IMG/VR virus record: IMGVR_UViG_3300033571_005008
Location: 1-24,615 of that record
Source of the DNA: a virus
Reading direction: 5' to 3' (one strand)
Length of the DNA stretch: 24,615 nt
A program made the translations under genes and the position numbers. The notes beneath the pieces were generated by a model. That model saw nothing but the letters and a program-made list of their open reading frames with translations, was not told where the DNA came from and searched no databases. Within the stretch, counting starts at the first letter, position 1. Each line of letters begins with the position of its first letter. Positions 2,742-24,238 of this stretch are shown here, in pieces.

Positions 2742-3970
2742 GTTACGTTTCTCCTTTTACTGGCGATGTCATTCAGCCAACTGATGTTTCATTTAGAGCT
2801 GTTACGCTTTCGGCAAACATTCAGCTTGAATGGCCTATCAATGGCAATGCAACAGATGACTATGTTGCTCGAATTATGCAGGTCACTGCTACGTCGGCAG
2901 GGTTGGCTATGTGGATGCCGCCTGCTAACCAGTCTTCAGTAGGCAATGACATTCTTATTCGAAATGTAGGTGCCAATTCATTTACTGTCAAAGACTATGC
3001 AGGCACTAATACTATCATTACAGTTGCTGCAGGTGAAGCAAAATACATTTACATTACAGCAAACCCTAATGAACAAGGTACATGGGGCATCATTTCATTT
3101 GGCACAGGCTCATCTTCGGCAGATGCAGCAACATTGGCAGGCTATGGCTTGTTGGCAATCACAACAACACTAAACCAAAGCCATCCGGTTATCACGTTTA
3201 GTTCGCCATACACAGCAATTGCCACTGATCGTGCACAAATGTATGCATGGACAGGTGGTGCAGGAACGCTTACTTTAACTGCAGCATCGACACTTGGCAA
3301 TAATTGGTTTATGTTTTTGCGAAATGCAGGAACAGGCACACTAACAGTTGCAGGATCAGGCGGAAACACGATCAACGGTTCTACAAGCGTTTTGTTTCAA
3401 CCTGATGATTCGGCAATCATAGTTTGTACAGGCTCAACGTTCTACACTGTAGGCTTAGGCAAGTCTACACAGTTTGCATTCACGCAACTTACGAAAGCAG
3501 TCACTTCAGGCTCATACACACTGACTGCTGCTGAAGCATCTAACGTTATTCAAAAATACACCGGTGCACTTACAGGCAACGTCACAATCGTTATTCCTGC
3601 AACGGTTCAAGTGTATTACATTGTGAATGCCACAACAGGCGTTTACACAATCACCATTACCACAGGTGGTGGTGGTACAACTGCTGTACTTTCAACAAAC
3701 ACGCAAGCAACATTGGTTTGTGATTCAGTTAACTTGTACAACGCCAACACGATTCTTGCCGGTTCAAGCGCAATTTCATTGCAAAATGGTTCAGTGACCA
3801 ACCCTTCGTTGACTTTTGCTTCTGAAACAAACACCGGTATCTATAGAGCGGCATCAGGGCAGTTTAACACCTCAATTCTTGGTGTCTTGGTGTCTACATT
3901 AAGCGCATCAGGTTTGTCAATTGCTGGCGTTGGCAACTTTACAGGTGGTGTTTCCGGAGGCGCGTTCTAA
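2738..3970 (+). CDS. Beta-rich virion appendage / tail fibre-like protein
   Basis: 410 residues, rich in Thr, Ser, Gly, Ala and Val with many short alternating strands, typical of trimeric tail fibre or appendage shafts. It contains repeated beta modules (about 20-125, 145-240 and 245-340), each with a pattern like TLTAA...N.W..FLRNAGTG. The C-terminus (about 350-410) has the NPSLTFASETNTGIYR type motif often seen at the end of phage fibre or receptor-binding proteins. It probably decorates the tail and may contact the host. ATG at 2738 overlaps the adaptor stop (ATGA), and its own stop overlaps the next start (TAATG). No enzymatic motif is seen. Confidence 0.6.
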   Translation: MSYVSPFTGDVIQPTDVSFRAVTLSANIQLEWPINGNATDDYVARIMQVTATSAGLAMWMPPANQSSVGNDILIRNVGANSFTVKDYAGTNTIITVAAGEAKYIYITANPNEQGTWGIISFGTGSSSADAATLAGYGLLAITTTLNQSHPVITFSSPYTAIATDRAQMYAWTGGAGTLTLTAASTLGNNWFMFLRNAGTGTLTVAGSGGNTINGSTSVLFQPDDSAIIVCTGSTFYTVGLGKSTQFAFTQLTKAVTSGSYTLTAAEASNVIQKYTGALTGNVTIVIPATVQVYYIVNATTGVYTITITTGGGGTTAVLSTNTQATLVCDSVNLYNANTILAGSSAISLQNGSVTNPSLTFASETNTGIYRAASGQFNTSILGVLVSTLSASGLSIAGVGNFTGGVSGGAF

Positions 3971-5961
3971 TGACAGCCAAAGTCTTCTCCATTGACACGC
4001 TACCTGGCGTTCAGCGAGACGGCACTGTGTTTGACATGAATTTTTATGTTGATGCTGAGTGGGTTCGATTTCAGCGTGGTAGACCTCGCAAGATTGGCGG
4101 TTACCGATCACTAACTAACTTGGCAACAGGCTATTCACGTGGCATTTATGTAAATGCTACAAACGGCTTTAATCAAATTTTTAATGGCACCTCAGGTGCC
4201 TTAGAAGTTTTAACTATCGACAACACAGGTATTGGTGCCGGCGTTAACCAGTTTACTTTGTCTGACTTTACTGCCAATGCTCTTAATCTGTGGCAGTTTG
4301 ATTCACTATTCGATGCAAGTGGGTCAGGCAATCAGCTGTTGTTGGCACACCCAGGACAAAACTTAGCGCAAGTTGATGCAATTGCAAACACACCTGTGTT
4401 GCAAGGCAATATTAGCGGTACAACAATGTCTAAGGTCGGTGTGTTCTCTATTGCAGGATGCACTAAGTCAAGTGGCTCAGGAACATTCACTATTCCTGCT
4501 GCAGATACACGAGTCGGCATTGGTCAATCAGTAAGCGGTAATGGTATTGCCCCAGGGACTGTTGTGACAAATGTGTCATCAACAACTATCTCTATTTCGA
4601 TCAACACAACAAATGCGGCTACTGCAACAATCACATTTGACAACAACATTGCTGTATCAGGCGGCGTAGTTGTGCTACACCCATACGTGTTTATATACGG
4701 CAACAACGGGTTAATTAAGAACTGTGCAGCAGGTGATGTAACTGACTGGGTAAGTGCTGATTCTAATGAAACCAACGCAGCATCTACAAAGATTGTCAAA
4801 GGGCTGCCTGTTCGAGGTGGTTCTAACTCACCATCAGGTTTATTCTGGGCGCTGGATTCTCTTATTCGTGTGTCTTATGCACCTTCAACCATTGGAGCAA
4901 GCACATTGTATTGGCGCTACGACGTTATTAGTAGCCAATCATCTATTTTGTCATCGTCATCCGTAATTGAGTATGACGGTGTATATTACTGGGTTGGTGT
5001 TGACCGATTCTTGTTGTACAACGGTGTTGTGAAAGAAATTAAAAACAACTACAACCAAAACTACTTCTTTGACAACTTAAACTATGCCCAACGACAAAAA
5101 GTATGGGCAACAAAAGTGCCACGGTTTGGTGAGATCTGGTGGTTCTTTCCGTCAGGCGATTCTGTAGAGTGTAATGATTGCGTGATCTACAACGTTCGAG
5201 AAGAAGTCTGGTACGATGCAGGTCAAGCCCTAGGCGCTAATAGATCGGCAGGTTACTTTTCACAGGTGTTTAGCTTTCCGATTAATGCAGGTACGGATCT
5301 TTCTACAACAGTTACGCTTTTCAGTGCAGACATTGTTACGCAATCAACAGCAGTAATTCTTGTGCCTTTGCCTACATTGCTGAACCCCAACACAAACTTG
5401 ATTGCGCTAGGTCAGCTAGTGACGGCAGCAGGCATACCTACAAATTCTGTCATTATTGCAATTGCACCAAGCGCCACCGTTGGCTATTGGGATGTGACAT
5501 TAAGCAATTCAGCAATAGCATCTGCAACTGTTGTCGGCACGTTTAGTACTGTTCCAGGTAAAGTTACTCTTTGGCAGCATGAAATCGGCACTGATGAAGT
5601 GAATGGTCCTACATCAAATGCAATTAACAGTTTTTTTGAGACATCTGATTTAGGTTGGGTGCAAGGCGGTCCTGCACAATCATCACCAATAGGTGACAAC
5701 AACTGGTTACGTGTTGAGAGAATTGAACCTGATTTTGTACAGTCAGGCACAATGTCTGTTCAAGTGACTGGTAGGCCTTATGCACAAGCTGAAGATGTGA
5801 TTTCTGACCCGTACTTCTTTGAACCAGATACACACAAAATTGACATGCGTGAACAGAGGCGTGAAATTCGTCTTCGGTTTACTAGCAATGAGCAAGGTGG
5901 TAACTACCAACTAGGCAGAGTTTTGCTGTCAGTTGACATAGGCGATGTGAGGGGTTACTAA
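3970..5961 (+). CDS. Tail nozzle / packaged DNA stabilisation-like protein
   Basis: 663 residues. The N-terminal region has a distinctive patch, residues 27-45 (VDAEWVRFQRGRPRKIGGY), seen in the nozzle or gp10-like stabilisation proteins of short-tailed phages. The rest is beta-rich, as expected for a propeller. Insertions at about 160-225 and 440-530 look like Ig-type or beta-sandwich decorations. The C-terminal part, with DPYFFEP, REQRREIRLRFTSN and a final GDVRGY, is the conserved end of this family. The protein would close the tail tube below the adaptor. GGAGG lies eight bases upstream of the ATG. It is the largest protein of the tail part. Confidence 0.7.
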   Translation: MTAKVFSIDTLPGVQRDGTVFDMNFYVDAEWVRFQRGRPRKIGGYRSLTNLATGYSRGIYVNATNGFNQIFNGTSGALEVLTIDNTGIGAGVNQFTLSDFTANALNLWQFDSLFDASGSGNQLLLAHPGQNLAQVDAIANTPVLQGNISGTTMSKVGVFSIAGCTKSSGSGTFTIPAADTRVGIGQSVSGNGIAPGTVVTNVSSTTISISINTTNAATATITFDNNIAVSGGVVVLHPYVFIYGNNGLIKNCAAGDVTDWVSADSNETNAASTKIVKGLPVRGGSNSPSGLFWALDSLIRVSYAPSTIGASTLYWRYDVISSQSSILSSSSVIEYDGVYYWVGVDRFLLYNGVVKEIKNNYNQNYFFDNLNYAQRQKVWATKVPRFGEIWWFFPSGDSVECNDCVIYNVREEVWYDAGQALGANRSAGYFSQVFSFPINAGTDLSTTVTLFSADIVTQSTAVILVPLPTLLNPNTNLIALGQLVTAAGIPTNSVIIAIAPSATVGYWDVTLSNSAIASATVVGTFSTVPGKVTLWQHEIGTDEVNGPTSNAINSFFETSDLGWVQGGPAQSSPIGDNNWLRVERIEPDFVQSGTMSVQVTGRPYAQAEDVISDPYFFEPDTHKIDMREQRREIRLRFTSNEQGGNYQLGRVLLSVDIGDVRGY

Positions 5962-6209
5962 TGGCGCTTGCAGTTGTTTACGATCCTCGTCATCACACAT
6001 GGGATTCATGGACAAGTCTTATGTGTGAAGCATACGCAGGCCAACAGCTTCAGATGAATTCTTTAGAGACTAACTGGAGAGGCTGGGCTGAAGGTCTAAA
6101 GGCGATTGATGTGTTTGAAAACGAAGCTATTCCAGGTCCATCCGCTTTTGCAACATGGCAAGAGTGGGCACAACAGCTTGTGAATACTGTTAACCAATCG
6201 ATAGAATAA
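5961..6209 (+). CDS. Small conserved virion-block protein, function unknown
   Basis: 82 residues, acidic and rich in Trp (seven residues), with no membrane segment. It starts YDPRHHTWDSWTSLMCEAYAG and contains TNWRGWAEGL and TWQEWAQ. I have an impression of similar small genes next to nozzle genes in environmental podoviruses, but can give no function. Start and nozzle stop overlap as TAATG, with GAGGGG upstream, so the two are probably translated together. It could be a minor tail or assembly protein. Confidence 0.7.
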   Translation: MALAVVYDPRHHTWDSWTSLMCEAYAGQQLQMNSLETNWRGWAEGLKAIDVFENEAIPGPSAFATWQEWAQQLVNTVNQSIE

Positions 6210-6210
6210 C

Positions 6211-6498
6211 ATGGACTTTCTTGATCTCTTTAACACGATAGCTAGAAAAGCTCGACCTGCACACCATGACTTTGTGCCTTTGTCTTCTATGGATACCGTA
6301 TTCACAGACACAGACTTAGACTCACTTGATATGCTAATGGTTGCAATGTTCTTTTCCGAGATCTATGGCATTGACGATGAGATTGCAAAGTACTTAACAC
6401 CTGCATCAGTGCAAGAAATGTACGACGAAATACAAAAACACAAAACCAAAGATCCTGAGTCTATCGAACTAGCAATGGAAGCAGTTGCAGGATGGTAA
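6211..6498 (+). CDS. Acyl carrier protein-like
   Basis: 95 residues. The centre reads TDTDLDSLDMLMVAMFFSE, matching the DSL signature at the start of helix II of acyl carrier proteins; Ser38 is the expected attachment site of 4'-phosphopantetheine. After it comes an ACP-like pattern with IYGI, an acidic stretch (DDEIAKY) and a last helix TPASVQEMYDEIQ. Length is near the usual 75-90 residues, with a C-terminal extension of about 20. Helix II is more hydrophobic and less acidic than in E. coli AcpP, so the partner surface may differ. The gene lies one base after the upstream stop and overlaps the ketoacyl synthase gene by seven bases, which strongly suggests the two act together. No phosphopantetheinyl transferase is seen, so a host enzyme would have to load it. 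Confidence 0.8.
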   Translation: MDFLDLFNTIARKARPAHHDFVPLSSMDTVFTDTDLDSLDMLMVAMFFSEIYGIDDEIAKYLTPASVQEMYDEIQKHKTKDPESIELAMEAVAGW

Positions 6499-7595
6499 TT
6501 AAACTAGCACACTATCGGACAGCATGCGCCACATCTGTTGAGATGCTGGAAGACATTGTCTATCCGCAACGAGTTCACTGGATCCCAGAGACATATGCTC
6601 GTACAAAAACAGGTATGGTTTATGTGCCACATAAGCTTGCCGAACGAGTACTAGACGCCAAGTTAGCAACGCACTTACGTGAAAACCCAGTAGGCAAGAC
6701 AGCATTTATCTTTGCCGGTGGCAACAGTCACATTGCAGGCATTGGTGCTCGTGAATATGACACTCAGCTGTCATATACTTACAAGTTTTTACCGTTCACA
6801 CTGACACAAGTCTATGCTGGTCGGACTGCAAATGCTTTTGGTGCCAATGACCATATTGTCACAGATTCATCTGCATGTGCCTCCAGCTTAAAAGTCTTGA
6901 TGGATGTACAAACACTTATAAAATGCTACGACTTTAAACGTGTGGTTGTCCTGTCATTCGAGGATGCCGTCTCTAATGCGGTTCTGGAATTCTTTGGTGA
7001 AGCCAAAGCATCTCTTACAAAGCGTGAAGAAGACCAAGGCGTGCTTCCATCCGCATTTGATGATAAGAACCAAGGCTTCTACGTTGGTCAAGGTGCAGTC
7101 TTGGCAGTCTTTGAAAGTGATGATGTGTGCCGTGAACCACTGGCAACTTTGCACGGTGCATACACAGCAAGTGAAGACTATTCGAATGCAATCGGCCAAC
7201 GTGAGGACGGACAAGGTTTTGCTCGTGCCATTGAAGGCACACTAAAGTTTGCTAATGAGAATCGACACAAGATCAGCATTGTGAAGACTCATGGCACAGG
7301 TACAAAATCAAACAATGTTTCTGAAAAAGCAGCGTTAGAAAGTTGCTTAGATGAGTTTGTGGCAACATCTTATAAGCAGCGAATCGGGCACACAATGGGT
7401 GCCAGCGGCTTACTTGAAACATGCCTTTTAATTGATGACATCAAGCGAGGCGTAGTGCCTGCCATTCTGAATAGAACAAGTGAAGATCATCGTTATTTGT
7501 CGCATGACATAGCACCACCTAGTGGCATGATTTTGTCATTAGCCGCAGGGATGGGAAATGTTTATTCGGCAGCATTGCTGTCACTGGAGACGTAA
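6492..7595 (+). CDS. Beta-ketoacyl-ACP synthase-like (FabF/KAS family)
   Basis: 367 residues of the thiolase/KAS fold, shorter than FabF (about 410). Catalytic positions are all present: nucleophile Cys129 in TDSSACASS, His267 in KTHGTGT, Lys295 in YKQRIGH and His300 in GHTMGASG. The GFYVGQGA segment (195-202) matches the conserved GF.VGEGA of KAS enzymes. The enzyme should accept an acyl group on Cys129 and condense it with a malonyl-type unit on an ACP. Differences: the N-terminal about 70 residues are divergent and short, and the C-terminal gate motif GFGGTN is replaced by a GMGN-type sequence near 353-356. The start overlaps the ACP stop. No other fatty acid synthesis gene is in the window. 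A polyketide or chain-length function cannot be separated from a FabF role by sequence alone. Confidence 0.85.
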   Translation: MVIKLAHYRTACATSVEMLEDIVYPQRVHWIPETYARTKTGMVYVPHKLAERVLDAKLATHLRENPVGKTAFIFAGGNSHIAGIGAREYDTQLSYTYKFLPFTLTQVYAGRTANAFGANDHIVTDSSACASSLKVLMDVQTLIKCYDFKRVVVLSFEDAVSNAVLEFFGEAKASLTKREEDQGVLPSAFDDKNQGFYVGQGAVLAVFESDDVCREPLATLHGAYTASEDYSNAIGQREDGQGFARAIEGTLKFANENRHKISIVKTHGTGTKSNNVSEKAALESCLDEFVATSYKQRIGHTMGASGLLETCLLIDDIKRGVVPAILNRTSEDHRYLSHDIAPPSGMILSLAAGMGNVYSAALLSLET

Positions 7596-8050
7596 TGGCT
7601 ACTTCAAAGATGGTTGATAGCAGGTACCACAACCTTGATGTGTTTACAATCGTGAATATTGCTGTGAAGCAAATGCCACGACCTGAAGGCATGGATGACA
7701 AAACATTAGTGGCAAGTATCTTGTCTGAAGTTGCAATGCCTGAGTGTAAAGCAAATAAGTTCGGCAATACGCTTTTCATCATGCATGTAAAAGGTCGCAT
7801 ATGTTCTTTCCGTGCATTTAATGCAGACATTGCACCAAATTTTGTGAACAATAGTAAGAACTTTTGTAAATGGGCATACAACGACGAAGGCATCGACTAC
7901 GGTGTTACTGAGTTTGAAGATGAAACCATTTCAAAACTGTTTAGCGCCATTGCACGAAACCCGCCAATGCCTAGTATGGGGTTTAAGCAAGAACTTCTGA
8001 CTGATGACACATACAGATGCACGCTTAAATTCGGGAAGGAGCGTGGATAA
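7595..8050 (+). CDS. Unknown protein following the ketoacyl synthase
   Basis: 151 residues, no signal peptide or membrane segment, mixed alpha/beta look. A hydrophobic strand pair NTLFIMHVKGRICSFRAFNAD (about 58-78) is followed by helices and the motif IARNPPMPSMGFKQE (about 122-136), then a last strand YRCTLKFG. It starts on TAATG with the synthase stop, with GGAG six bases upstream, so it is translationally coupled to it. It may be a third part of the acyl module, for example a GNAT-like acyl acceptor enzyme, or an ordinary virion gene that merely borders it. I do not recognise the family with confidence. Confidence 0.65.
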   Translation: MATSKMVDSRYHNLDVFTIVNIAVKQMPRPEGMDDKTLVASILSEVAMPECKANKFGNTLFIMHVKGRICSFRAFNADIAPNFVNNSKNFCKWAYNDEGIDYGVTEFEDETISKLFSAIARNPPMPSMGFKQELLTDDTYRCTLKFGKERG

Positions 8051-10626
8051 TGGCTGCTGCAGTTAAACAAGTAGTTAGTGACGTAAAAGGCGTTGTAAAT
8101 TCTGTAGGCGATGCCGTTCAAGATGTCGGTAAGTTTGTTGAAAAAGAAATTGTTAAGCCTGTCGTAAAAGCAGTTGACAACACTATTGAAGCAATTAAGA
8201 ACGACCCAATTGGGACGATTGCAACGATAGCTACTGCAATCGTTGCACCTCAGTTTCTTCCATTGGTATCAGGTGCAAACACACTTGCGCACGGTGGTTC
8301 GCTTGAAGATGCCGTTAAAGCAGCTGCAATCACGTATGTAGGCGGCAAAGTAGCAACTGCAGGTGCTAATATAGGATCAAATGTAGCCAAGGCGCTTGAC
8401 GTAGGTGCAACTGCCGCCAAGATTGCAACTAATGCAGGTGCGGCAATTGGCTCAACTGTAGTTGCCGGCGGTGATGTAGGGAAAGCAGTAACAGGGGCAA
8501 TCGTTGGTACAGGCATAGGTGAAACTTTAAACACGTATTTACCGCCTGGAACATCTGTCGCCACAAAAAAGGCAATTAGTAGTGCCGTTGTGGCAGAAAT
8601 GCAAGGTCGTGACCCTGTTCAGGCAATGGCAAATTCTTATGTCGGTTCAGGCGTAAATTATGCAGTAAACAAAGGCGTTGACTATGCAGCAGACACGTTT
8701 AAGTCACTTACCACGCCTGCACTAACTAACAACCCTGAGCTTGCTCGTGCTGATGAAGGCGATGTAGATCTCTACAATGAGCTTGCACAACGAAATGGCG
8801 CATTACCAACTAGTAAAGGCATTGAACTAGCATCGTCAGACAGTAACTTTAGCCCTGAAATTAGTGTTCAAGTTTCAGGTACACCAATCTTTGCTGACGA
8901 TCCTAGAGCTAAAAAGGTTGAACCACCTCCTGGTTATCGACTGGTAAACTCTAGCGAAGGTACGCCTGCATACAATGCAGAGTATGACGCAAATGTAGAC
9001 CCTAAAAAGGGTACGTTCTATGACATGGCTCAGAATGCGTGGTTCACAAAAGACGAAAAGCAAGAAGAAGATTTTGTCAAAATGCGTGACTGGTTGGCAG
9101 ATTCAAAACCTCCGTTAGGGTTTGGAAATGTGCTACTTGAAGATGCACAAAACCCTGACATTAAAGAAGCTGAGTCGCCGCTAACCAGTAGCCCTGAACT
9201 TGATCGTGCTGATGAAGGTGATGTAGATCTCTACAATGAGCTTGCACAACGAGATAAGACTGTAAATGTTGGCTCATTGCCTACATTGGCAAATCGTGTT
9301 ACGCCGGTGACGCCTTTGCAAGTACCAAGCATGCCAACTCAGTCGCCATTGACTAGTAGCCCTGAACTTGATCGTGCTGACGAAGGTGATATAGATCTTT
9401 ACACTAAGCTTGCACAACAAGAAGGCTTTTTGACACGTGATGACAAAGGCAACTTTACATACGTTAACTTAAGCGATTTTGACCCACAAGAAGCACCGGG
9501 CTACACTATTGTAGACAGTGAAGGCAAAGAAACTTATGTTACTTCAGACACGCTTGGCACGATTAGTGAAATTGCTAATGACGATGAACTAACAGACCAA
9601 GACAAGGTTGACAATATTGCTAATGTCTTTGGCCCTGGTATGTCGGAAGAAGACTTCATCAACAGTGAAGAAGAAGGCGACATTACACTTGAAGACTACG
9701 CCAATGCTGCAAATAGATACACTCAGCCTACACCAGAAACTAAATCACCTTTGTCTGTAGATGAAAAAGGCTACATGACAGAAGAAGACTTCATCAACAG
9801 TGAAGAAGAAGGCGACATCACACTTGAAGACTACGAAAAAGCAGCTGAGAGATACACTAACGAACCTCCAATAACAGCCCCGTTTAGACCTACTCCTCCA
9901 AGCACACCTGGACCTGGTGTTCCTGTTACGGAACCTGTGTCAGATCCAGGCGCAATAACTGCAGGTGGCACAAAAGCATCTTCTGTAAGTGCTGCTTTAC
10001 CTGTTGCGCCACAAGGCAACATGCTATCAGCTGCACCGTTGGTTGAGTCACAATCAAGCATACAACAGCTTACACAGCTTTATCCACAGTTGGCAAATGT
10101 GCGGCCTGATATTTTGCAAATGTTGTCTGGCAGTGGCCCATCTAAGTCGTCATACTACACGTACGGCGGCTCAAACATGTCAACGCCTCTTATGAACACC
10201 AGCATTTCAGGCAGCCCTGGCCCTGGTTCACCATTAAGGAATATTGGCACTGTGTCAACCGATCCAACCGGTTATCAGTCATTTAGCCCTTCAGGCAGTC
10301 TGACACAACAAGGTCTAGGTATGATCGGGTTTAAGAAGGGCGGCCCTGTTTCACAACATGTGCCTGAATTCATTACAGGCGAGACAGGATACTATGTCCG
10401 AGGCAAAGGCGACGGCCAGTCAGACGACATTCCAGCAATGTTGGCGGATGGTGAATATGTGTTCGATGCAGACGTAGTGGCTGCATTAGGCAACGGTTCA
10501 AATGAAGCAGGCGCTGAGATCCTTGACAAGATGCGTGAAGCAATTCGTAAGCATAAGCGATCTGCACCTCCAGGAAAGATTCCGCCCAAGGCAAAATCGC
10601 CACTTGAATATTTGAAGGATATTTGA
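8050..10626 (+). CDS. Large internal virion / ejection-type protein with internal repeats
   Basis: 858 residues. The N-terminal third (1-230) is Ala/Gly/Val-rich with helices and a hydrophobic stretch near 53-75, as in proteins ejected into the cell envelope. The middle is acidic and low in order and carries two repeat sets: three copies of a 22-residue unit around PELxRADEGDVDLYNELAQ (about 228-248, 380-401, 436-457) and two of a 27-residue unit around EEDFINSEEEGDITLEDY (about 531-557 and 576-602). The C-terminal about 90 residues (GGPVSQHVPEFITGETG, then GDGQSDDIPAMLADGEY, ending KIPPKAKSPLEYLKDI) look like a strongly conserved closing domain. AAGGAG precedes the ATG. The ejection role is inferred from position and composition. 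Confidence 0.6.
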   Translation: MAAAVKQVVSDVKGVVNSVGDAVQDVGKFVEKEIVKPVVKAVDNTIEAIKNDPIGTIATIATAIVAPQFLPLVSGANTLAHGGSLEDAVKAAAITYVGGKVATAGANIGSNVAKALDVGATAAKIATNAGAAIGSTVVAGGDVGKAVTGAIVGTGIGETLNTYLPPGTSVATKKAISSAVVAEMQGRDPVQAMANSYVGSGVNYAVNKGVDYAADTFKSLTTPALTNNPELARADEGDVDLYNELAQRNGALPTSKGIELASSDSNFSPEISVQVSGTPIFADDPRAKKVEPPPGYRLVNSSEGTPAYNAEYDANVDPKKGTFYDMAQNAWFTKDEKQEEDFVKMRDWLADSKPPLGFGNVLLEDAQNPDIKEAESPLTSSPELDRADEGDVDLYNELAQRDKTVNVGSLPTLANRVTPVTPLQVPSMPTQSPLTSSPELDRADEGDIDLYTKLAQQEGFLTRDDKGNFTYVNLSDFDPQEAPGYTIVDSEGKETYVTSDTLGTISEIANDDELTDQDKVDNIANVFGPGMSEEDFINSEEEGDITLEDYANAANRYTQPTPETKSPLSVDEKGYMTEEDFINSEEEGDITLEDYEKAAERYTNEPPITAPFRPTPPSTPGPGVPVTEPVSDPGAITAGGTKASSVSAALPVAPQGNMLSAAPLVESQSSIQQLTQLYPQLANVRPDILQMLSGSGPSKSSYYTYGGSNMSTPLMNTSISGSPGPGSPLRNIGTVSTDPTGYQSFSPSGSLTQQGLGMIGFKKGGPVSQHVPEFITGETGYYVRGKGDGQSDDIPAMLADGEYVFDADVVAALGNGSNEAGAEILDKMREAIRKHKRSAPPGKIPPKAKSPLEYLKDI
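8731..9420 (+). repeat. Three dispersed copies of a 66-base coding repeat
   Basis: Copies lie at 8731-8793, 9187-9252 and 9355-9420. The first two share an identical 33-base core from GATGTAGATC to GCACAACGA. Each encodes PEL(A/D)RADEGD(V/I)DLY followed by LAQ. The copies are separated by unrelated sequence, so this is a modular linker-like repeat rather than a tandem array. Confidence 0.85.
9640..9855 (+). repeat. Two copies of an 81-base coding repeat
   Basis: Copies at 9640-9720 and 9775-9855 encode M(S/T)EEDFINSEEEGDITLEDY, then a short diverged part ending in RY. DNA is almost identical over the first 57 bases. The strongly acidic unit resembles the DEGD(V/I)DLY core of the other repeat set in the same protein, so they may share an origin or a binding partner. 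Confidence 0.85.
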
Positions 10627-10628
10627 TC

Positions 10629-11666
10629 ATGTCATTAACACAAGGCGCACCATTACCGAATATCACCACAACGCAAGGGCAAACAACTACTGCGCCTAGC
10701 TGGTATACTGACTATCTCAGCGATCTGTCAAAGAACGTTACTGCACAAACAACAGGCCCAGATGCTGCTAAGTATGTGGGTGCACAACCACTACAAAATC
10801 AAGCGTTTACTGCAGCAGGCGCACTTCCTGGCAAATATGATGCCACCTTGCAGTCTGGCATTGATCTGACACAACAAGTTGGTTCTACAGACGTTGCCAA
10901 ACGAGCTGGCGAGTTTATGAACCCATATACGACACAAGTCGTAGACGCACTGGGTCAGCTTGGTCAACGTAACATTCAACAGTTCTTGGCACCACAAGCT
11001 ACATCAGCTGCCGTAGGTTCTGGCCAGTTTGGCTCAAAACGAGGGGCTGAAGCGCTAGGTAGTGCAATCAACACAGGTCTTCAGAATCTTAATGCAACGC
11101 AAGCTCAAGCATTACAGACAGGCTATTCGCAAGCTCTTCAAGCTGCACAAGCTGACCAGCAGCGGCAGCTAGAGTCAGGCAGACAAATGGGTGCACTGGC
11201 ACAGCAAGGTCAAGGGATGGACTTGGCAGACATTAATGCATTGGCTACCATGGGTGGTCAACAGCAGACTATTGCACAAAACGAAGAACTGTTTCCTTTG
11301 CAATCATTAAACCAAGGTGCACAAGCACTTCGTGGCTATAGCATTCCAACCAGCGTAAGTTCAACGTACACTGGACCGATTCCAGGCGCATATGCATCAT
11401 CGCCATTGCAACAAATTGCAGGTCTAGGCGCAGTGGTTGCAGGTTCTAGCGGCACCGACTTTGGTAAGTACATTGGCAAGAAAGTTAGTGGCTGGTTGAA
11501 CGGGCCTACACCACCAGCAGGACTTAATACAGGTCAAGTCAATGGCGGCGGCGGTGGTAGCAATCCTGTTTATGACTTTGGTGATGAAGGTACTGTATAC
11601 GACAACTACTTTGACGACCTTGGCAATGAATTCTCACCAGGCGGCTCGCCAATCTATGACTTCTAA
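10629..11666 (+). CDS. Internal virion protein-like, Gln/Ala-rich
   Basis: 345 residues from ATG 10629, which has GAAGGAT nine bases upstream; a TTG at 10623 is too close to that site. The protein is rich in Gln, Ala and Gly, with a long helical region (about 115-235) and a disordered Gly/Asp/Tyr C-terminus (YDFGDEGTVYDNYFDDLGNEF) ending in IYDF. No membrane helix or enzyme motif is clear. The segment FMNPYTTQVVDALGQLGQRN, about residues 97-116, resembles a family common next to ejection proteins in environmental podoviruses. Probable role: core or ejected protein, inferred from position. Confidence 0.6.
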   Translation: MSLTQGAPLPNITTTQGQTTTAPSWYTDYLSDLSKNVTAQTTGPDAAKYVGAQPLQNQAFTAAGALPGKYDATLQSGIDLTQQVGSTDVAKRAGEFMNPYTTQVVDALGQLGQRNIQQFLAPQATSAAVGSGQFGSKRGAEALGSAINTGLQNLNATQAQALQTGYSQALQAAQADQQRQLESGRQMGALAQQGQGMDLADINALATMGGQQQTIAQNEELFPLQSLNQGAQALRGYSIPTSVSSTYTGPIPGAYASSPLQQIAGLGAVVAGSSGTDFGKYIGKKVSGWLNGPTPPAGLNTGQVNGGGGGSNPVYDFGDEGTVYDNYFDDLGNEFSPGGSPIYDF

Positions 11667-11678
11667 TCGGAGATAAAA

Positions 11679-13385
11679 ATGGCATTACCTACAGCAGTAG
11701 TTCCGCCTGCGCCTGCAATGTTAGGTGCAGGTGAAGACAGAGCAAAACAAGAGTATTTTGAAGCACTTCAGAAAACATTGTCTGCACTTGAAGCACGAGC
11801 CAATCAAGGCACAAACTGGTGGCAAGTTGCAGGTGCATTATTAAGCCCTGGTAAGACAGGCAACATTGGTGAAGCTCTTGGTAATGTTGCCGGCGTGATG
11901 GGTGAACAGCAGCAACGACAACTTGAGCAACAAATACCTATTGCACAAGCTCGTGCACAAATTGCAGGTCAAAAATACGAGATTGAAAACCAAAGCAAAG
12001 CTATTCAACTACTGTCTAGAGCAATTGGTGTGCCCCCACAAGTAGTTCAACAACAGTTAGCTGATGGTTCACTTCCACCACAAGCTATTGCAAATATTCC
12101 GCCTGCAGTGTACGCACAAATTGCAACTTTATCGCCTAAGGTCGGTGAAGTTGTGAAGAACATTGCTGAAATGTCAAACAAGAATGCATCTTTAAATCTT
12201 GATCAGCAAAAGTTTAAAGAAACGCAGACTCAGAATCAAATTACGAATGCTCGTGAAGATCTTAAGTCAGGCATGGGCATAGCCGATCTGATTGCCAAGT
12301 ACGGCCAAGGCATAGTAGGACTAATTAACACTAACACGCCTGCGCCTCCTGCAAGCGCAGTGCCACCACCTGCGCCACCACAAGCGGCACCACAAGCGGC
12401 ACCACAAGCTGCGCCACCTGTTGCGCCAGTTAACCCAGGTACTTTTGGAGAGCCTTCGGGAATGCCGCTTGCAGTCCCTAGTGGCGTACCACCTGTTTCT
12501 GTGCCTCAAGGTAAGACTATAGGACCACCTCCTACAGGCGCAGCACCGCCACCCGTAGCACCTCCGCAGTTAAACATGCCGCCACCTGCAAAAGTGCCAT
12601 TAAGTCAACAGCCTGTCATAGCACCAAACAAAAGTTCTTTAGCAAATAGAAACCCACAGCTTGCTGTACCGCCTAGTGTTGCCAGCGTTGCTAGTGCAAT
12701 TGACGACTTGTCTAATCTGCCTTTGGCCACACAGGCTGAAGTTAAGAAGAAGCGACTGGAAGAAGGTGACAAAGTATGGCAAACAAAACGTGACGAGATC
12801 TTTTCGTACACGCCACAAACGCTGCAAGGATCAAATACTAATCTTCGACAGTTGGACTACTATGCAACTAAGTTCCCCAACGTTTTTGCATTGATGCAAC
12901 AGCAAGGAACAATTGCAGCTTTGCAACAAGCGGCACAAGACGGTATTACATTGCAGGCAGGTCAGTTTAATGCACGAGTCGGCTTAAATGTTCGTGACTT
13001 CTTGCAAAAAGTAAAGCTTAACCCGAACGAGCAGCAAGCGGCTAGGGACGTTGGTCGAATTCTTGGATCTGAATTCTTGAACAACTTAAAAACCCAGCGT
13101 GGATTGCTAGGTGTTAACCCAACAGACAACGATGCTCGATTGTTGCAAGCGCCTATGGCAAGTATCGATGATTCAGCCAAGACAATGCAGTTCTGGGCAC
13201 GAAACCAACTGTTGCTGAACAAACAGCGTGAAGCTTTGTATGGCGGCTTACAAAAGTATAGTCAACAAGCAGGGCCAACTAGTTCACCTGGTGCGTTCTT
13301 CCGACCAGGTAGCATTTACGAGAAGATCAACAATGACTATGCCAACTATCGCATGCAGTTGTTCAACCAATTCAATCCAAAATAG
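11679..13385 (+). CDS. Internal virion protein-like with proline-rich linker
   Basis: 568 residues in three parts: a helical, Gln-rich N-terminal domain (1-210, with NWWQVAGALLSPGKTGNIGEALGN at about 43-66), a Pro/Ala linker (about 220-340) containing QAAP repeats, and a helical C-terminal domain (about 345-568) with YYATKFPNVFALMQQQG and GRILGSEFLNNLKTQRG. The linker would separate two folded units. GGAG lies a few bases before the ATG. The position between two other long Ala/Gln-rich genes supports a core/ejection role, but there is no recognised catalytic motif. Confidence 0.6.
   Translation: MALPTAVVPPAPAMLGAGEDRAKQEYFEALQKTLSALEARANQGTNWWQVAGALLSPGKTGNIGEALGNVAGVMGEQQQRQLEQQIPIAQARAQIAGQKYEIENQSKAIQLLSRAIGVPPQVVQQQLADGSLPPQAIANIPPAVYAQIATLSPKVGEVVKNIAEMSNKNASLNLDQQKFKETQTQNQITNAREDLKSGMGIADLIAKYGQGIVGLINTNTPAPPASAVPPPAPPQAAPQAAPQAAPPVAPVNPGTFGEPSGMPLAVPSGVPPVSVPQGKTIGPPPTGAAPPPVAPPQLNMPPPAKVPLSQQPVIAPNKSSLANRNPQLAVPPSVASVASAIDDLSNLPLATQAEVKKKRLEEGDKVWQTKRDEIFSYTPQTLQGSNTNLRQLDYYATKFPNVFALMQQQGTIAALQQAAQDGITLQAGQFNARVGLNVRDFLQKVKLNPNEQQAARDVGRILGSEFLNNLKTQRGLLGVNPTDNDARLLQAPMASIDDSAKTMQFWARNQLLLNKQREALYGGLQKYSQQAGPTSSPGAFFRPGSIYEKINNDYANYRMQLFNQFNPK
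12378..12413 (+). repeat. Short tandem repeat in proline-rich linker
   Basis: A 12-base unit CCACAAGCGGCA occurs twice exactly (12378-12389, 12390-12401) and once with two changes (12402-12413). It encodes QAAP repeats in the linker of the internal virion protein. Such repeats can change length by slippage without breaking the frame. Confidence 0.85.
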
Positions 13386-13392
13386 GTGACAC

Positions 13393-14586
13393 ATGGAAGA
13401 CGATCTTTCTAAGATAGACCCTTTGTTTGCTGCACCTCCTGGACAAACAGCGCCTCCTAGTGAAGAACAAACAGGCAACGCATTAGCAGACATTGACCCT
13501 ATTTTTGCAAACCCAATTGGTCCATCAGCTGATGCAAGCAAAAGCTCAACTTCACCTCCACCTCCTCGTGACAATACGCCTGAAGTTGCAGGTGGCGCAG
13601 TAGGCACAGCAGTTGGCTTGTTTGCGCCTAAGTATGAAAACCCCAAGCTTACATCTGCTAGAGCAGACTATGCAGGCTCTAGAGCTGCGGAAGGACAATT
13701 ACGAGGTGACCTTACACGTATGCAAGGCGAGCGTCTTGATGCAATGGACAATGCTAGGTTTGCAATACAAGATGCAGATGCCGGTGTGAACATAGCAAGA
13801 CAAGAGCTGAATGCAGCTGAAGAAGCGGCAAGACAACTTAATGCTTTGCCTGAGTCATCGCCTATTTCATCGGCAGACAATGTTGTGAAAGGTGCATCTG
13901 ATGTTGAAGGTGCACTGAGCCAAGGCGCTTTAAAGCACTCTGAAAAGATGGGTGAGGTTAGAGAAGCCAACCAAGTCAGGAAAGGCATTGCGGGTTACAA
14001 GCAAGGTCTGCCGACATCCGAACGTGTTCCTTTAACCGGTTATACACAGTCAAGCCGCTTGATCGTGCCGAATGAACTAGCTAATGCGCCTGTGAAATCA
14101 GCTGCGCAAATAGAAGCAGAAAACAGGCTTAAAGAAGCTAAAGACAAGCATGCTGCTGCAGTTAAACAAGCTGCTGAAGCAAAAATGAGGCAAGAATCAG
14201 CAGGCAAGCCTTCGCGGACTGAGTCAAGTCTTTCGTCTGATGTTACAAAGGCTTCAAGCACTACAGCAGGTAAGAAGGCAGCGCTGGAAGAACTGGAAAA
14301 AGCCAGAAGCTTCTTGTCCAAGATCCCAGGGTTTAACACTCTTATGGGTGGTTTATCAGGTGCCGAGCTTGTTCATGCTTACCGCCAAATTCGTGCAGGA
14401 AATACGTTGGATGGCGTAATGGCAGGTCTTAGTGGTGCAGGCGGCTTAATTGCCATGGCACCTCATCCTGTTGCAAAAGCAATCGGAACTGCTATGGCAG
14501 TGCCACCACTTGCATACCAAGCTTATCAGGCATACAAGGGTGACAATGCAGGTGTGCCAACACAGACAGACCCAATGGGTAACTAG
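13393..14586 (+). CDS. Internal virion protein-like, coiled coil, hydrophobic C-terminus
   Basis: 397 residues. The N-terminus has two copies of a short motif, L(S/A)(K/D)IDP(L/I)FA(A/N)P (about 5-15 and 31-41), then a Pro-rich stretch. A long Ala/Glu/Arg/Lys region (about 85-160 and 230-305) suggests coiled coil. The last about 90 residues are Gly/Ala-rich and hydrophobic (about 310-385), which could insert into or cross a membrane during DNA ejection. AGGTGA precedes the ATG. It ends the plus-strand block; its TAG lies in CTAG, shared with the stop of the converging minus-strand gene. Confidence 0.6.
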   Translation: MEDDLSKIDPLFAAPPGQTAPPSEEQTGNALADIDPIFANPIGPSADASKSSTSPPPPRDNTPEVAGGAVGTAVGLFAPKYENPKLTSARADYAGSRAAEGQLRGDLTRMQGERLDAMDNARFAIQDADAGVNIARQELNAAEEAARQLNALPESSPISSADNVVKGASDVEGALSQGALKHSEKMGEVREANQVRKGIAGYKQGLPTSERVPLTGYTQSSRLIVPNELANAPVKSAAQIEAENRLKEAKDKHAAAVKQAAEAKMRQESAGKPSRTESSLSSDVTKASSTTAGKKAALEELEKARSFLSKIPGFNTLMGGLSGAELVHAYRQIRAGNTLDGVMAGLSGAGGLIAMAPHPVAKAIGTAMAVPPLAYQAYQAYKGDNAGVPTQTDPMGN

Positions 14587-15550: not shown

Positions 15551-15809
15551 GTTTAGCCTTTTTGCAGTATTTGAATTTAGTGACAAAGTAACGATAATGC
15601 CTGACACTTCTATTGAGTGCTTGCTTCTTTAGCCCTTCTTCTCCACATACATCGACTTGCCTTTCAAGAAAAACAACAACTCGACTTAGTGAATGCATTG
15701 TGTGAGTTTTCCAGTTTGGGTGGTCGGTCACAAAATGCTTAAAGATTTGTTTACGCTTTGTTAGCGTCATCTTTGCTAGAGAACTCTGAATTTCAAACCA
15801 GCTGTTCAT
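15519..15809 (-). CDS. Small basic unknown protein
   Basis: 96 residues, strongly basic with many Lys, Arg and His, and helical regions including LSRVVVFLERQVDV. It overlaps the thymidylate synthase stop as ATGA upstream and the SANT-like gene by 32 bases downstream, so it is part of the operon. The charge would fit nucleic acid binding, but no domain is recognised. The four cysteines and histidines do not form an obvious zinc motif. Confidence 0.6.
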   Translation of the reverse strand: MNSWFEIQSSLAKMTLTKRKQIFKHFVTDHPNWKTHTMHSLSRVVVFLERQVDVCGEEGLKKQALNRSVRHYRYFVTKFKYCKKAKHENKNPLDKS

Positions 15810-16732
15810 ATGTGGTGTGTCTTGGTGATTGCATCAATTTGGTTAAGCAAGTCTTCACGAATTTTCAGGTAGGTGTCACTGCCTGCATATTCATCGCGCC
15901 CTTGTGTGTGGTAGAACTGTTCTTCACACCAGTCAAAGTTGTCATTCTTGGCATTAGGCGGAAAGATGTTTGTCTTACCTTTGGCAGATTGCCGTTGGTA
16001 GAAAGCATCAGGTTTACGGAAGTCCACCAACCCTTGTAGGAATGGGTACACCTTTAGAACTTCTAGCCATAACTTCATGGCAATGACGTTGTCTACCGTC
16101 GTCTGAATTTGTTCATCACCGCGCATAATGCAGTAACCAATGAGGTCTTTAATTGTGCAACGTACCATGTAAAAGTGCTCAAAATTGCGCGGCATGATAG
16201 TTCTAGCATCAAGGCCATGGACCAAACCGCTGTCAAGCATGTCCACATAAAGTTCACGAGCCATTGTTGTAATTTGTTTATAACGTTCATAGAAGTCCTT
16301 GTTTGCCATGATGCCAGGTTTAACCATTACACGATCATCACGCATATCGCGATCACCGTGAACTTGTGCTGCAAAACTGAATAGCCGGTGGCGTATCAGA
16401 TGTGTTGTATCAATCATGTCCATGCCGTTGACCGACCATGTGATGTTGATTGTTTCCATGGCAGTAGGTAACAGCTCATAGCGGAACAGTTCATCAATTG
16501 TTTGGTCAATGTCTGCTTTTGGAAAATCCCATTGGATCTTGTCATTCCATGTGTTCATTAAGAACACTGAAATTGTTTTACGAAACTGTTCAACCGTAGG
16601 CGCATGGACGATCTGAACGTCTATGTTTTCCAGTTGGTTGACAAATTCGATAGGACCAGGTTGCTTACCGAATTTAAGTTTTGTATGCATCTTTTGAAGA
16701 TGCGGCATTTGTGATTTAGAGACCTTAGGCAT
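15806..16732 (-). CDS. thyX: Flavin-dependent thymidylate synthase, divergent
   Basis: 308 residues. The ThyX signature appears as LIRHRLFSFAAQVHGDRD (112-129): RHR at 114-116 and Ser119 fit the start of RHRxxS, while the second half (normally around NEQSxRY) is changed. A second conserved part, DARTIMPRNFEHFYMVRCTI (175-194), matches the AR.xLP region that binds dUMP and flavin. The enzyme converts dUMP to dTMP using methylene-tetrahydrofolate, FAD and NADPH. It works with the dCMP deaminase gene of the other operon, which supplies dUMP. The start overlaps the upstream stop by eight bases and has only a weak ribosome site, so translational coupling is likely. Confidence 0.75.
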   Translation of the reverse strand: MPKVSKSQMPHLQKMHTKLKFGKQPGPIEFVNQLENIDVQIVHAPTVEQFRKTISVFLMNTWNDKIQWDFPKADIDQTIDELFRYELLPTAMETINITWSVNGMDMIDTTHLIRHRLFSFAAQVHGDRDMRDDRVMVKPGIMANKDFYERYKQITTMARELYVDMLDSGLVHGLDARTIMPRNFEHFYMVRCTIKDLIGYCIMRGDEQIQTTVDNVIAMKLWLEVLKVYPFLQGLVDFRKPDAFYQRQSAKGKTNIFPPNAKNDNFDWCEEQFYHTQGRDEYAGSDTYLKIREDLLNQIDAITKTHHI

Positions 16733-17006
16733 TTGTGTTTTCTTTCATGAGTTGTAGTTCTACTAGTCTTGCATATCCTGCAATGTCTGTCCAGCTATCC
16801 ACATGGGATGGCGATACAGCCAAGCGAGAAAGTTTCATGGCGATCTTAGAGAGATAAATAACATGGACAGGATCCATTTCTTTATTGTGTTGCTTGCGAT
16901 ACCTGTCCTTTATATTTTCAAGGATAACTGCTTCTAATGAAACGCCCTCAAAAAAATCACCATAAACCTCGCCTCTCTGTTCTAAAACTTGATCTGTCGT
17001 TTTCAT
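16725..17006 (-). CDS. DUF6378-like small phage protein
   Basis: 93 residues. The pattern VLEQRGEVYGDF near the start, then YLSKIAMKLSRLAVSPSHVDSWTDIAGYARL (about 50-80) matches the usual layout of the phage family known as DUF6378: ERG..YGD, then KxxR.....DsW.DiAGYa. Its function is not known; it tends to lie among nucleotide metabolism genes, as here between an HD nucleotidase and ThyX. GAGG lies eight bases before the ATG. It overlaps both neighbours by four and eight bases. Confidence 0.7.
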   Translation of the reverse strand: MKTTDQVLEQRGEVYGDFFEGVSLEAVILENIKDRYRKQHNKEMDPVHVIYLSKIAMKLSRLAVSPSHVDSWTDIAGYARLVELQLMKENTNA

Positions 17007-17515
17007 GGCAGCACCTCATAAGGTTGAAGTTTTTCCTCAAGTTTAGCTAACCGCTTTGAGCTATTTTCATGGACGTCTACCATGTAGCCGCCATTGCCTA
17101 GGCCTATTTCGTTAGCCGAATACTGAAGGCACTGGAGTGCATCGGCATAATGGACGACCAATGCTTCAGGCGTATCACCATGGTATAGGCCACAATAGTC
17201 TCTAAGCTGTTCTGGAAAGCTTTTCACAATTTCATGTTCAGCTTGCTTTAGTGCATCGGCAACTATTGGAAAATTTTTCTTGACCAAGTGGTTTACATCA
17301 GAGATTTCCATTTCAGCCAAGTCATGGCATATGGCAATCTTGACTGCTTTGTCAACATCAAACTTGTACGTTTTTGATAGCATAAGTACACCAAGTGCCA
17401 CGAAGAAACTATGTGTTGCAACGCTTTCTTGGTGAACCACAGGCTTCATGCTATAACGCTTGGTGTGTTCAAGCGTGTAGCTTTGCATAAAGAATGAAAA
17501 GTCGCCTTTATTCAT
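17003..17515 (-). CDS. HD-domain nucleotide phosphohydrolase (YfbR-like 5'-nucleotidase)
   Basis: 170 residues with the metal-binding HD set: H35 (in QESVATHSF), H64-D65 (AICHDLAEMEISD) and D125 (YADALQ). The HDLAE motif and length fit the YfbR group, which removes phosphate from deoxynucleoside monophosphates; the same fold includes phage dATP phosphohydrolases (DatZ). Substrate cannot be read from sequence. It lies between a nucleoside deoxyribosyltransferase and DUF6378, so it may recycle or remodel the dNTP pool. It overlaps the upstream gene by eight bases and the downstream gene by four. Confidence 0.8.
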   Translation of the reverse strand: MNKGDFSFFMQSYTLEHTKRYSMKPVVHQESVATHSFFVALGVLMLSKTYKFDVDKAVKIAICHDLAEMEISDVNHLVKKNFPIVADALKQAEHEIVKSFPEQLRDYCGLYHGDTPEALVVHYADALQCLQYSANEIGLGNGGYMVDVHENSSKRLAKLEEKLQPYEVLP

Positions 17516-19708: not shown

Positions 19709-20343
19709 TTGCAAGGGCCGCCATTGTCTTTACGGTAATGACAAAACTTGCATAGGCCTGAAGGGTTGGCAGCATAGATCTTGTCTGACTGAAGCTGTTT
19801 GATCCGTGTGATTAGACCTGCCTGAAGATCAGCAAGATTGCCACGAACAATGGTGTCATATGCCCTGTACTTCTTAAGGTCGACAAATTCAATGCCAATG
19901 TTAACAGCATCTATATGCGGCTTAGTTGCTAAGATAACAGCTGCATACACAGACACTTGGTCAGTGTAGTCACGGTCTTTGCCTGTCTTAAAGTCTAGAA
20001 CAGTGGCTTCATTATCCTGTTCCATGTATAAGTCAATGACACCACGAAACCATGCTGTTTGATCGTCATATGCTACAGCTTTCCAGTCTTTGTCAACCGC
20101 AAACTTCATCTCAGACTGTGCTTTTAGACCGATCCAAGTCTCGATCTTAGGCAACAAGTGTTGTACTTCATCTGAAATTATGACAAGGCCGCCATTCAAG
20201 ATGTTTTCAATCTCTGTATGGATCATCGTGCCTCTACTAGCAGCATCACCGGTAGGTTGTGGAAGTCTGTCTATACGATTGAACTTGTACTGAGCAGGGC
20301 ATTGCTCGTATTGCTTAACTGCAGAATATGAATACGCCATCAT
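19702..20343 (-). CDS. PD-(D/E)XK nuclease, Cas4/RecB-like with four cysteines
   Basis: 213 residues. N-terminal SYSAVKQYEQCPAQYKF begins like the AddB/Cas4/RecB nuclease family. Active-site residues: H42 (MIHTEIE), D104 (GVIDLY), D117 and K119 (LDFKTGK), Q129 (TDQVSVYA). Cys15 together with C198, C201 and C211 (GLCKFCHY, PCKW) forms the four-Cys set that holds an iron-sulfur cluster in this group. It is probably a 5'-3' exonuclease or end-processing enzyme for recombination. ATGATG gives two adjacent starts; GAGG is four bases from the first and seven from the second, so 20340 is an alternative. It follows the polymerase with overlapping stop/start. Confidence 0.88.
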   Translation of the reverse strand: MMAYSYSAVKQYEQCPAQYKFNRIDRLPQPTGDAASRGTMIHTEIENILNGGLVIISDEVQHLLPKIETWIGLKAQSEMKFAVDKDWKAVAYDDQTAWFRGVIDLYMEQDNEATVLDFKTGKDRDYTDQVSVYAAVILATKPHIDAVNIGIEFVDLKKYRAYDTIVRGNLADLQAGLITRIKQLQSDKIYAANPSGLCKFCHYRKDNGGPCKW

Positions 20344-23288: not shown

Positions 23289-23742
23289 TCTTTTCCTCCA
23301 AGAATTTAGGGTCGTAAAGATGTACTTCCAGTTTAGCTTCATTAAACATTGTCCTTGCAATTACGTGTGAGCCTTCCCAACGTTCATTTTCGCTTATTAC
23401 AGTTACATGCGTTTTAATACCTGTTTGAATGATCATAGCTGCGCATTGTGAACATGCATGCATCGGCCACGTGTAAATTGTGCAGCCTTCTAAAGACTGT
23501 TTGGCAAACAAAATAGCATTTGTTTCAGCATGCAAAGTCATCATGTACTTTGTATTACGTTCAAACAACCACTCAGCCTTGTCAGTAATTCCACGAGGAA
23601 AACCGTTAAAGCCAGTGCTGACGATTTCATTGTTTGCGTTTACAATAACTGCACCACACTTGGTTGATGGATCTTTGGACCATGATGCTACTAGTTTGGC
23701 AAGTTGTAGGTAGCGAATGTGCCACTTATTAGGCTGCAACAT
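23275..23742 (-). CDS. dCMP deaminase-like (zinc cytidine/deoxycytidylate deaminase)
   Basis: 155 residues from ATG 23742, with AAAGG six bases upstream; the ATG at 23748 lies on the ribosome site itself. The zinc motif is H71-A-E73 (LHAETNA) and C97-x2-C100 (MHACSQCA). The early part (SKDPSTKCGAVIVNANNEIVSTGFNGFPRG) matches the dCMP deaminase group, which turns dCMP into dUMP for thymidylate synthesis. The product would feed ThyX of the other operon. The usual PCxxC proline is replaced by Ala, a mild change. It overlaps the upstream gene by 14 bases and the downstream gene by 14. Confidence 0.88.
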   Translation of the reverse strand: MLQPNKWHIRYLQLAKLVASWSKDPSTKCGAVIVNANNEIVSTGFNGFPRGITDKAEWLFERNTKYMMTLHAETNAILFAKQSLEGCTIYTWPMHACSQCAAMIIQTGIKTHVTVISENERWEGSHVIARTMFNEAKLEVHLYDPKFLEEKNEAQ

Positions 23743-24238
23743 GGTCATCCTTTAGCATAAATTCAGGTGCATATGAACCTTCGTTGCGGTACCACACCAT
23801 AGTCATAACGTTTTTCTTCCAACGGTAGTAGTTACGGTAAGCAACAACCACATCTTCGTGCTTACATTCATCTGGCATGCACTGTGGTGGAACACGCCAT
23901 TTACAAGGCATGGCTTTTAAAGCAGGTGGTGCTTCAGCAAGTTCGCCAAAAAACAAATCATAGCAACGATGCTGTTTGCCATAGCGAAGACGATATTGTT
24001 TGCAAAGGCTTTTACCAAGATCTACAAGGTATGCATAGTGCAATTTAGACTCACGTGCCCACACGTTACTTGGGTGATTTACATGAGTTGGTTTGTATGA
24101 AACTGCATGACCATTGCCATGTTGGTGGTGTGCAGTTGCCAGCAATTGCGCTGTTTCTACGATCATCTTGACAACGTGTTTGTCACAATGATACAAGGCA
24201 GCTATTTGCGGGGTGTGGTGCAAAAAGAAGATGTTCAT
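23729..24238 (-). CDS. Pyrimidine dimer DNA glycosylase-like (Pyr_excise) phage protein
   Basis: 169 residues. The motif CDKHVVKMIVETAQLL (18-33) followed by NHPSNVWARES (54-64) and a late basic region parallels the pattern LD.KRLGKQRVE..QIL and NHP.v.MW..yE of the Pyr_excise family. It could repair UV-damaged phage DNA, but the resemblance is distant and the family has not been tested here. There are several His and Cys residues, including HCDKH and a late Cys pair around PPQCMPDECKHED, which may bind metal. It is the first gene of the first minus-strand operon; ATG at 24238 has AAAGG seven bases upstream and the duplicated promoter/operator ahead. Confidence 0.5.
   Translation of the reverse strand: MNIFFLHHTPQIAALYHCDKHVVKMIVETAQLLATAHHQHGNGHAVSYKPTHVNHPSNVWARESKLHYAYLVDLGKSLCKQYRLRYGKQHRCYDLFFGELAEAPPALKAMPCKWRVPPQCMPDECKHEDVVVAYRNYYRWKKNVMTMVWYRNEGSYAPEFMLKDDHVAA

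Follow-up and report, generated by a model that had tools for sequence, protein, structure and literature searches.

In the 24,615-nucleotide virus record IMGVR_UViG_3300033571_005008 (the whole stretch analysed, hereafter the window), genes for an acyl carrier protein (ACP) and a beta-ketoacyl-ACP synthase (KS) lie among the genes of the phage particle and are followed by a gene for a protein with a predicted GNAT fold. The ACP and KS form an old, phage-only, and strictly paired unit that is tied to this GNAT-fold gene of the virion operon. Because a matched ACP and KS, and then an acyltransferase-shaped protein, are encoded among particle genes, the arrangement suggests synthesis of an acyl group by the phage during infection and its attachment to some acceptor, possibly proteins of its own particle. 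We tentatively read the trio as a phage-encoded module for acyl synthesis and transfer, and give this reading somewhat less than an even chance. In sequence and structure prediction, it is based on an ACP whose site is intact, a KS that keeps all its catalytic residues, and a protein of GNAT fold that lacks the usual coenzyme A (CoA) loop, the three being normally co-translated from the late operon. Its strongest competitor is a metabolic role of ACP-KS, with the GNAT-fold protein as an unrelated assembly protein encoded next to the pair.

The initial annotation had described an ACP-KS pair with an overlap of seven bases, and the open reading frames (ORFs) and profile searches confirmed it. 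The ACP, apparently a specialised one, is encoded at 6211-6498 on the plus strand (95 amino acids). The KS, of the KAS I/II type, is encoded at 6492-7595 on the same strand (367 amino acids). In Pfam, the KS matched Ketoacyl-synt_C (E 9e-16) and ketoacyl-synt (E 4.6e-9), and the bit scores of the ketoacyl-synt N and C domains, 36.7 and 58.4, are above the curated cut-off of 20.8. It also matched FabF structures in the PDB (E 9e-19) and the FabF family of NCBIfam (TIGR03150; E 2e-30), in the latter case with 105.8 bits, which is below the equivalog cut-off of 493.75. In a profile alignment with E. coli FabF, Cys129, His267, Lys295, and His300 pair with the FabF catalytic set, and the C-terminal GFGGTN gating loop of FabF is replaced by AGMGNVY, which is invariant in the family. 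All 197 near-full-length phage homologues have the same four catalytic residues; these homologues represent 67 clusters at 90% identity and have pairwise identities down to 50%. By its sequence profiles, the KS belongs to the KAS I/II condensing enzymes, and a thiolase fold and condensing activity are predicted.

In a phylogenetic tree with 38 bacterial sequences, a chance sample drawn from pattern hits, the 14 phage-type KS sequences grouped as a single clade with a long branch. Recent acquisition of a host FabF was considered and is unsupported, as this phage clade stands well apart from the other KS sequences sampled. The sole KS of this family in the bacterial genome collection was found on a contig of a Balneolaceae metagenome-assembled genome (MAG; JAGYJQ010000016.1, L083) with ACP and GNAT genes beside it. 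This contig may be a phage contig binned into the MAG.

As a single sequence, the window ACP matches ACPs only weakly and is very dissimilar to E. coli AcpP. It has no match to the Pfam PP-binding family, and 7 of 21 relatives do match (best E 0.0013). Its identity rests on the family profile and the fold, since the single-sequence match is too weak. Against the PDB, the family profile matched almost exclusively ACPs (best E 0.0017). The AlphaFold model (pLDDT 91) is a four-helix bundle, the fold that the initial annotation had proposed to look for by structure prediction, and Ser38 begins helix II (residues 38-52). When this model was searched with VIA-align, carrier proteins accounted for all 50 matches listed; the best had a Z of 7.9 (root-mean-square deviation [rmsd] 2.5, 77 residues aligned), where a Z below 13 is weak on its own for helical folds. 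The phosphopantetheine site of the window ACP is D37-S38-L39-D40, and the corresponding DS[LM]D motif is invariant in 203 of 203 relatives. Retention of Ser38 and of the four KS residues, first noted in the window alone, thus extends through both families, and relatives lacking them were not found. The protein is therefore best described as an ACP with an apparently intact phosphopantetheine site, to which attachment of phosphopantetheine and acyl groups is predicted.

This KS is carried by 211 viral loci, of which 176 are distinct by DNA. A survey of co-occurrence, suggested along with the initial annotation, placed the ACP gene directly upstream of the KS gene in every distinct locus with room for it (168/168). 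In 158 of 161 distinct loci, the gene that follows the KS gene is the GNAT gene; with the latter as bait, every recovered locus carried the KS (best 80 loci). The same gene order is seen in a named relative, MW202545.1 (Manatee Spring). In that record (L001), a chaperonin 10 kDa (GroES-like) subunit is annotated at 267-722, near capsid genes.

The ratio of nonsynonymous to synonymous substitution rates (dN/dS) in close pairs was 0.025-0.042 for the KS, 0.034-0.113 for the ACP, and 0.081-0.181 for the GNAT protein. Purifying selection is strong. Chance ORFs or pseudogenes are ruled out for the pair by this selection and by the invariant catalytic and phosphopantetheine residues, and the synteny with MW202545.1 likewise goes far beyond what chance would give. 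The same invariance (197/197 for the KS residues, 203/203 for the ACP serine) makes a purely structural or assembly role of the two proteins, without catalysis, scarcely credible. Their location among virion genes in most loci would fit such a role, but one clade has the ACP-KS pair away from virion genes.

The next gene (7595-8050, plus strand) encodes a protein of 151 amino acids. No convincing sequence-family match was obtained for it in profile searches including Pfam and PHROG, and none of 30 family members has a Pfam match. The structure is predicted at high confidence (pLDDT 92). The top Foldseek matches of the model are GNAT enzymes, and GNAT N-acyltransferases align over residues 8-151. 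With VIA-align, the best Z was 11.3 (RimI; rmsd 3.2, 125 residues aligned), and the top rows are tied. Neither RtxC nor LuxI is among the 50 matches listed, which is uninformative either way. We regard the protein as a probable acyltransferase on the strength of this predicted fold, which makes doubtful the earlier statement that no other lipid genes are in the window.

The R/QxxGxG/A loop that binds the acyl-CoA pyrophosphate between strand 4 and helix 3 was found in none of 185 sequences scanned there and is absent from the family consensus too; no canonical CoA loop was found among 198 GNAT sequences. The strand 4-helix 3 segment of this family is instead a three-residue loop, in which N76 and D78 are invariant and N82 is nearly so. 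Distant matches of the GNAT protein among viral models include 'internal virion protein A' and DUF2824 proteins.

The reaction sequence proposed for the module would begin with the charging of the phage ACP by host AcpS. Host malonyl-ACP and acyl-ACP would feed the KS, which would extend an acyl chain or dedicate it to the phage ACP, and host reductases would finish the cycle. The GNAT protein would then transfer the acyl group to an amine, with the ACP instead of CoA as the donor. Reliance on host supply had been anticipated in the initial annotation and agrees with the gene content of the phage records searched. No phosphopantetheinyl transferase (AcpS family, PF01648) was detected in 24 phage records, and neither a FabD-like (PF00698) nor a FabG-type (PF13561) gene in 14; bacterial controls were positive in both cases, and the records may be incomplete. 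Because none of these genes was found, the module would depend on host AcpS, malonyl-ACP, and reductases. Any activity would thus tap host pools, which is also what would be expected if the phage ACP and KS served to shut off the host by diverting or trapping malonyl-ACP and phosphopantetheine, so that host lipid synthesis is starved. We consider this very improbable, as it requires neither the strict retention of four KS residues nor a GNAT partner, and late expression would be poor timing.

The likeliest acceptor in the proposed module would be a co-expressed virion or ejection protein, by analogy with RtxC/HlyC and their protein targets. A late protein seems most likely because the transfer candidate, the GNAT protein, stays in the virion operon, and among possible roles the acylation of an internal protein is favoured by the presence of this predicted enzyme. 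A more specific version holds that these phages lipidate their own ejection or virion proteins: a private ACP-KS pair would build a custom acyl chain, a GNAT-type enzyme of the virion operon would attach it, and the modification would aid membrane insertion of the ejected proteins. In this full form, we think the idea rather unlikely.

ACP-dependent GNAT-like enzymes such as FeeM and LuxI produce N-acyl amino acids and acyl-homoserine lactones. The trio could, by such precedents, make a small N-acyl product, namely an N-acyl amino acid, a molecule resembling a signal, or a compound directed at cells or rival phages, and the KS product, 3-oxo-acyl-ACP, is a typical donor for such reactions. This appears improbable to us. 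Most loci place the trio in the late operon between tail and ejection genes, no exporter or further biosynthetic gene is seen beside it, and the GNAT protein has no match to LuxI-type families in Pfam.

Relatives without the trio, which the initial annotation did not cover (nor did it include the GNAT-fold third gene or the early-operon clade described below), are available in culture. The Caulobacter phages GB2A, RW, RLK, and KcrB have a gp10-like gene in common with the window phage. In GB2A, a small gene (gp066) directly precedes the gene for the large tape-measure/internal protein; ACP, KS, and GNAT genes are all missing, and both flanks are homologous and collinear. Among 82 loci checked in a search with the gp10-like gene, 9 had all three genes, 2 had ACP-KS (their contigs end ahead of the possible GNAT position), 2 had GNAT alone, and 69 had none of the trio, a count that includes short loci and is an upper bound. 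Whole-record searches of 14 cassette-minus or GNAT-only records, with a working positive control, found no KS, and found GNAT in only two, L323 and L324. The diverged GNAT genes of these two (L323, L324:7881-8552) are on contigs of about 53 kb, and a search seeded with the L324 protein recovered L324 alone. They may be relics left by loss of ACP-KS. In a tree of the gp10-like stabilisation protein, on which presence and absence were mapped, the cassette states need three changes. As the minus clade is nested among plus phages, the states are most simply explained by an old module that was later lost, in a tree with uneven sampling and some long branches that meet.

In one further clade, the ACP-KS pair has been relocated. 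In L055, L071, L076, and their relatives, it sits after a helicase gene and ahead of replication-type genes, and no GNAT gene adjoins it. A 39.8-kb contig of the clade of L340 (G025) has ACP-KS at 3714-5101 in an early operon and, some 20 kb away, GNAT at 24800-25297 behind gp10 in the late operon. This layout shows, on one large contig, that ACP-KS moves as a unit and that GNAT can be retained in the late operon and co-occur with the pair without adjacency. The initial annotation had assigned the pair to the late, structural transcript. That placement is the usual one and applies to the window, but late expression is not obligatory, as this clade has the pair in an early or replication operon.

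These distributions bear on the choice between the acyl-transfer module and its main rival, in which the genes are auxiliary metabolic genes (AMGs): ACP-KS would alter host fatty-acid flux or membrane composition, and the GNAT neighbour would have nothing to do with them, being a virion assembly protein like T7 gp13 or P22 gp14. We treat this as a serious possibility, though a doubtful one. The module is supported by the fact that ACP and KS are never apart, both in the 168 distinct loci with room and in the relocated clade. Also in its favour are the KS-GNAT adjacency, the presence of KS in the loci recovered with the GNAT bait, the unlinked co-occurrence in G025, the joint lack of the three genes between collinear flanks in GB2A, the negative KS searches of 14 whole records, the low dN/dS values, and the missing CoA loop. 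Several points weigh against it. Phages for which no ACP-KS, or indeed no KS, is known also have GNAT-fold proteins (DUF2824, 'internal virion protein A'), so that the protein here may serve an unrelated function. L323 and L324 retain the GNAT gene without ACP-KS, and the relocation of the pair to an early operon argues against a strict tie to virion assembly. Since the gp10 tree needs only three changes, co-occurrence may largely reflect shared ancestry. Furthermore, when shared late proteins were compared between phages with and without the cassette, no lysine tracked the cassette in the alignable parts, which leave out the middle of the large protein and the genes at 11679-14586 (much of the ejection block). 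GNAT catalysis, acyl donor, and acceptor are all putative.

The metabolic alternative draws on the same first three points, and on reports in which ACP or fab genes of other phages are described as AMGs (PMC11705849, PMC8224337). It fits less well with the KS-GNAT adjacency in 158 of 161 distinct loci, with an ACP that is private to its KS and so dissimilar to AcpP, and with the Caulobacter-phage clade, which, apart from the two GNAT-only contigs, misses the trio as a block, GNAT included, from the late operon.

Around the trio, the genes are those of a late operon on the plus strand. Upstream lie a P22 gp10-like phage stabilisation (tail) protein gene (3970-5961; phrog_3287, E 1.9e-26; the GB2A homologue has 43% identity over 78%) and a small late gene of 82 amino acids (5961-6209), which is conserved with and without the trio, has 36% identity to Caulobacter phage GB2A gp066, and marks the left border of the module. 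The right border is the gene of a large internal or tape-measure-like protein (8050-10626) with PHROG tape-measure matches, whose C-terminal domain has 49% identity in GB2A. A DNA ejection protein gene (10623-11666; phrog_4287, E 9.8e-7) then opens the ejection-protein block. One coupled late transcript across this region is likely because from 3970 to 10626 each start codon abuts or overlaps the preceding stop, and matches resembling promoters or terminators do not exceed their frequency in shuffled sequence.

Elsewhere in the window, likely lysis genes occupy 1155-2062 on the plus strand, where an M15 peptidase endolysin (1634-2062) is preceded by a spanin-like protein. On the minus strand are a thymidylate synthase of the ThyX type (15806-16732) and a DNA polymerase I (20340-22160) that scores 183 bits against the aminoadenine-incorporating DpoZ family, below the cut-off of 500. 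An HD-domain YfbR-like nucleotidase (17003-17515) is encoded near the polymerase gene, and 23729-24238 has a weak match to a pyrimidine dimer DNA glycosylase (E 0.003, below the cut-off).

Lipid genes of phages have mostly been described as isolated metabolic genes taken from hosts; in contrast, the ACP-KS pair described here is a phage-only unit, and the uncultivated phage group that carries the trio is widespread. Should a virion protein prove to be acylated by the trio, this would to our knowledge be the first pathway dedicated to lipidation in a tailed phage. By extension, many short-tailed phages might have protein acyltransferases in their GNAT-fold late proteins, for which this would be a testable function. 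The cultured Caulobacter phages that lack the trio provide a ready natural comparison.

No description of a phage KS-ACP system was found in the open-access literature, and the closest known systems each share part of the arrangement. An ACP in Alteromonas phage R22Y and fabG-acpP-fabF in Rhodobacteraceae prophages have been reported as AMGs (PMC11705849, PMC8224337), and like the present pair they are a phage-borne ACP, or ACP plus FabF. The prophage clusters have the bacterial gene order with fabG, whereas the phage records here yielded no FabG-type gene (PF13561, 14 records) and the KS is phage-only and GNAT-linked. Viral fabF has also been reported in metagenome surveys, without this pairing, clade, or third gene. 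FabF/KAS II has the same Cys-His-Lys-His set and provides the closest NCBIfam and PDB matches, but the phage KS is shorter (367 against 413 amino acids), diverges over its first ~80 residues, and falls far under the equivalog cut-off. T7 gp13-like 'internal virion protein A' and DUF2824 proteins resemble the third gene in fold and late-operon setting; they differ in sequence (~10-12% identity in the fold match) and belong to phages not known to carry ACP-KS.

RtxC takes its acyl group from acyl-ACP, its target protein is encoded in its own operon, and its use of this donor is explained by the loss of CoA-contacting elements (reviewed in PMC8339906). The RtxC/HlyC-type lysine acyltransferases have a GNAT-like fold without these elements, as the phage protein is predicted to have. 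In contrast, none of 30 phage GNAT members has a Pfam match (distant kin could be missed), there is no RTX-type target here, and HlyC uses the host ACP and has no private KS. On the predicted structure, the relation to RtxC would be one of resemblance, not membership. The rhizobial NodF-NodE-NodA system, which acylates Nod factors, combines a dedicated ACP, a dedicated KS, and an acyltransferase that draws the chain from the ACP (PMC5080398, PMC9386255); NodF is the ACP according to PMC9386255, and the NodE and NodF names are swapped in the text of PMC5080398. The phage GNAT protein has no NodA match in Pfam, no chitooligosaccharide genes are seen, and the phage genes lie in a late operon. Nevertheless, the division of labour among ACP, KS, and N-acyltransferase resembles that proposed for the phage trio, in which use of the ACP-bound chain by the GNAT protein is predicted.
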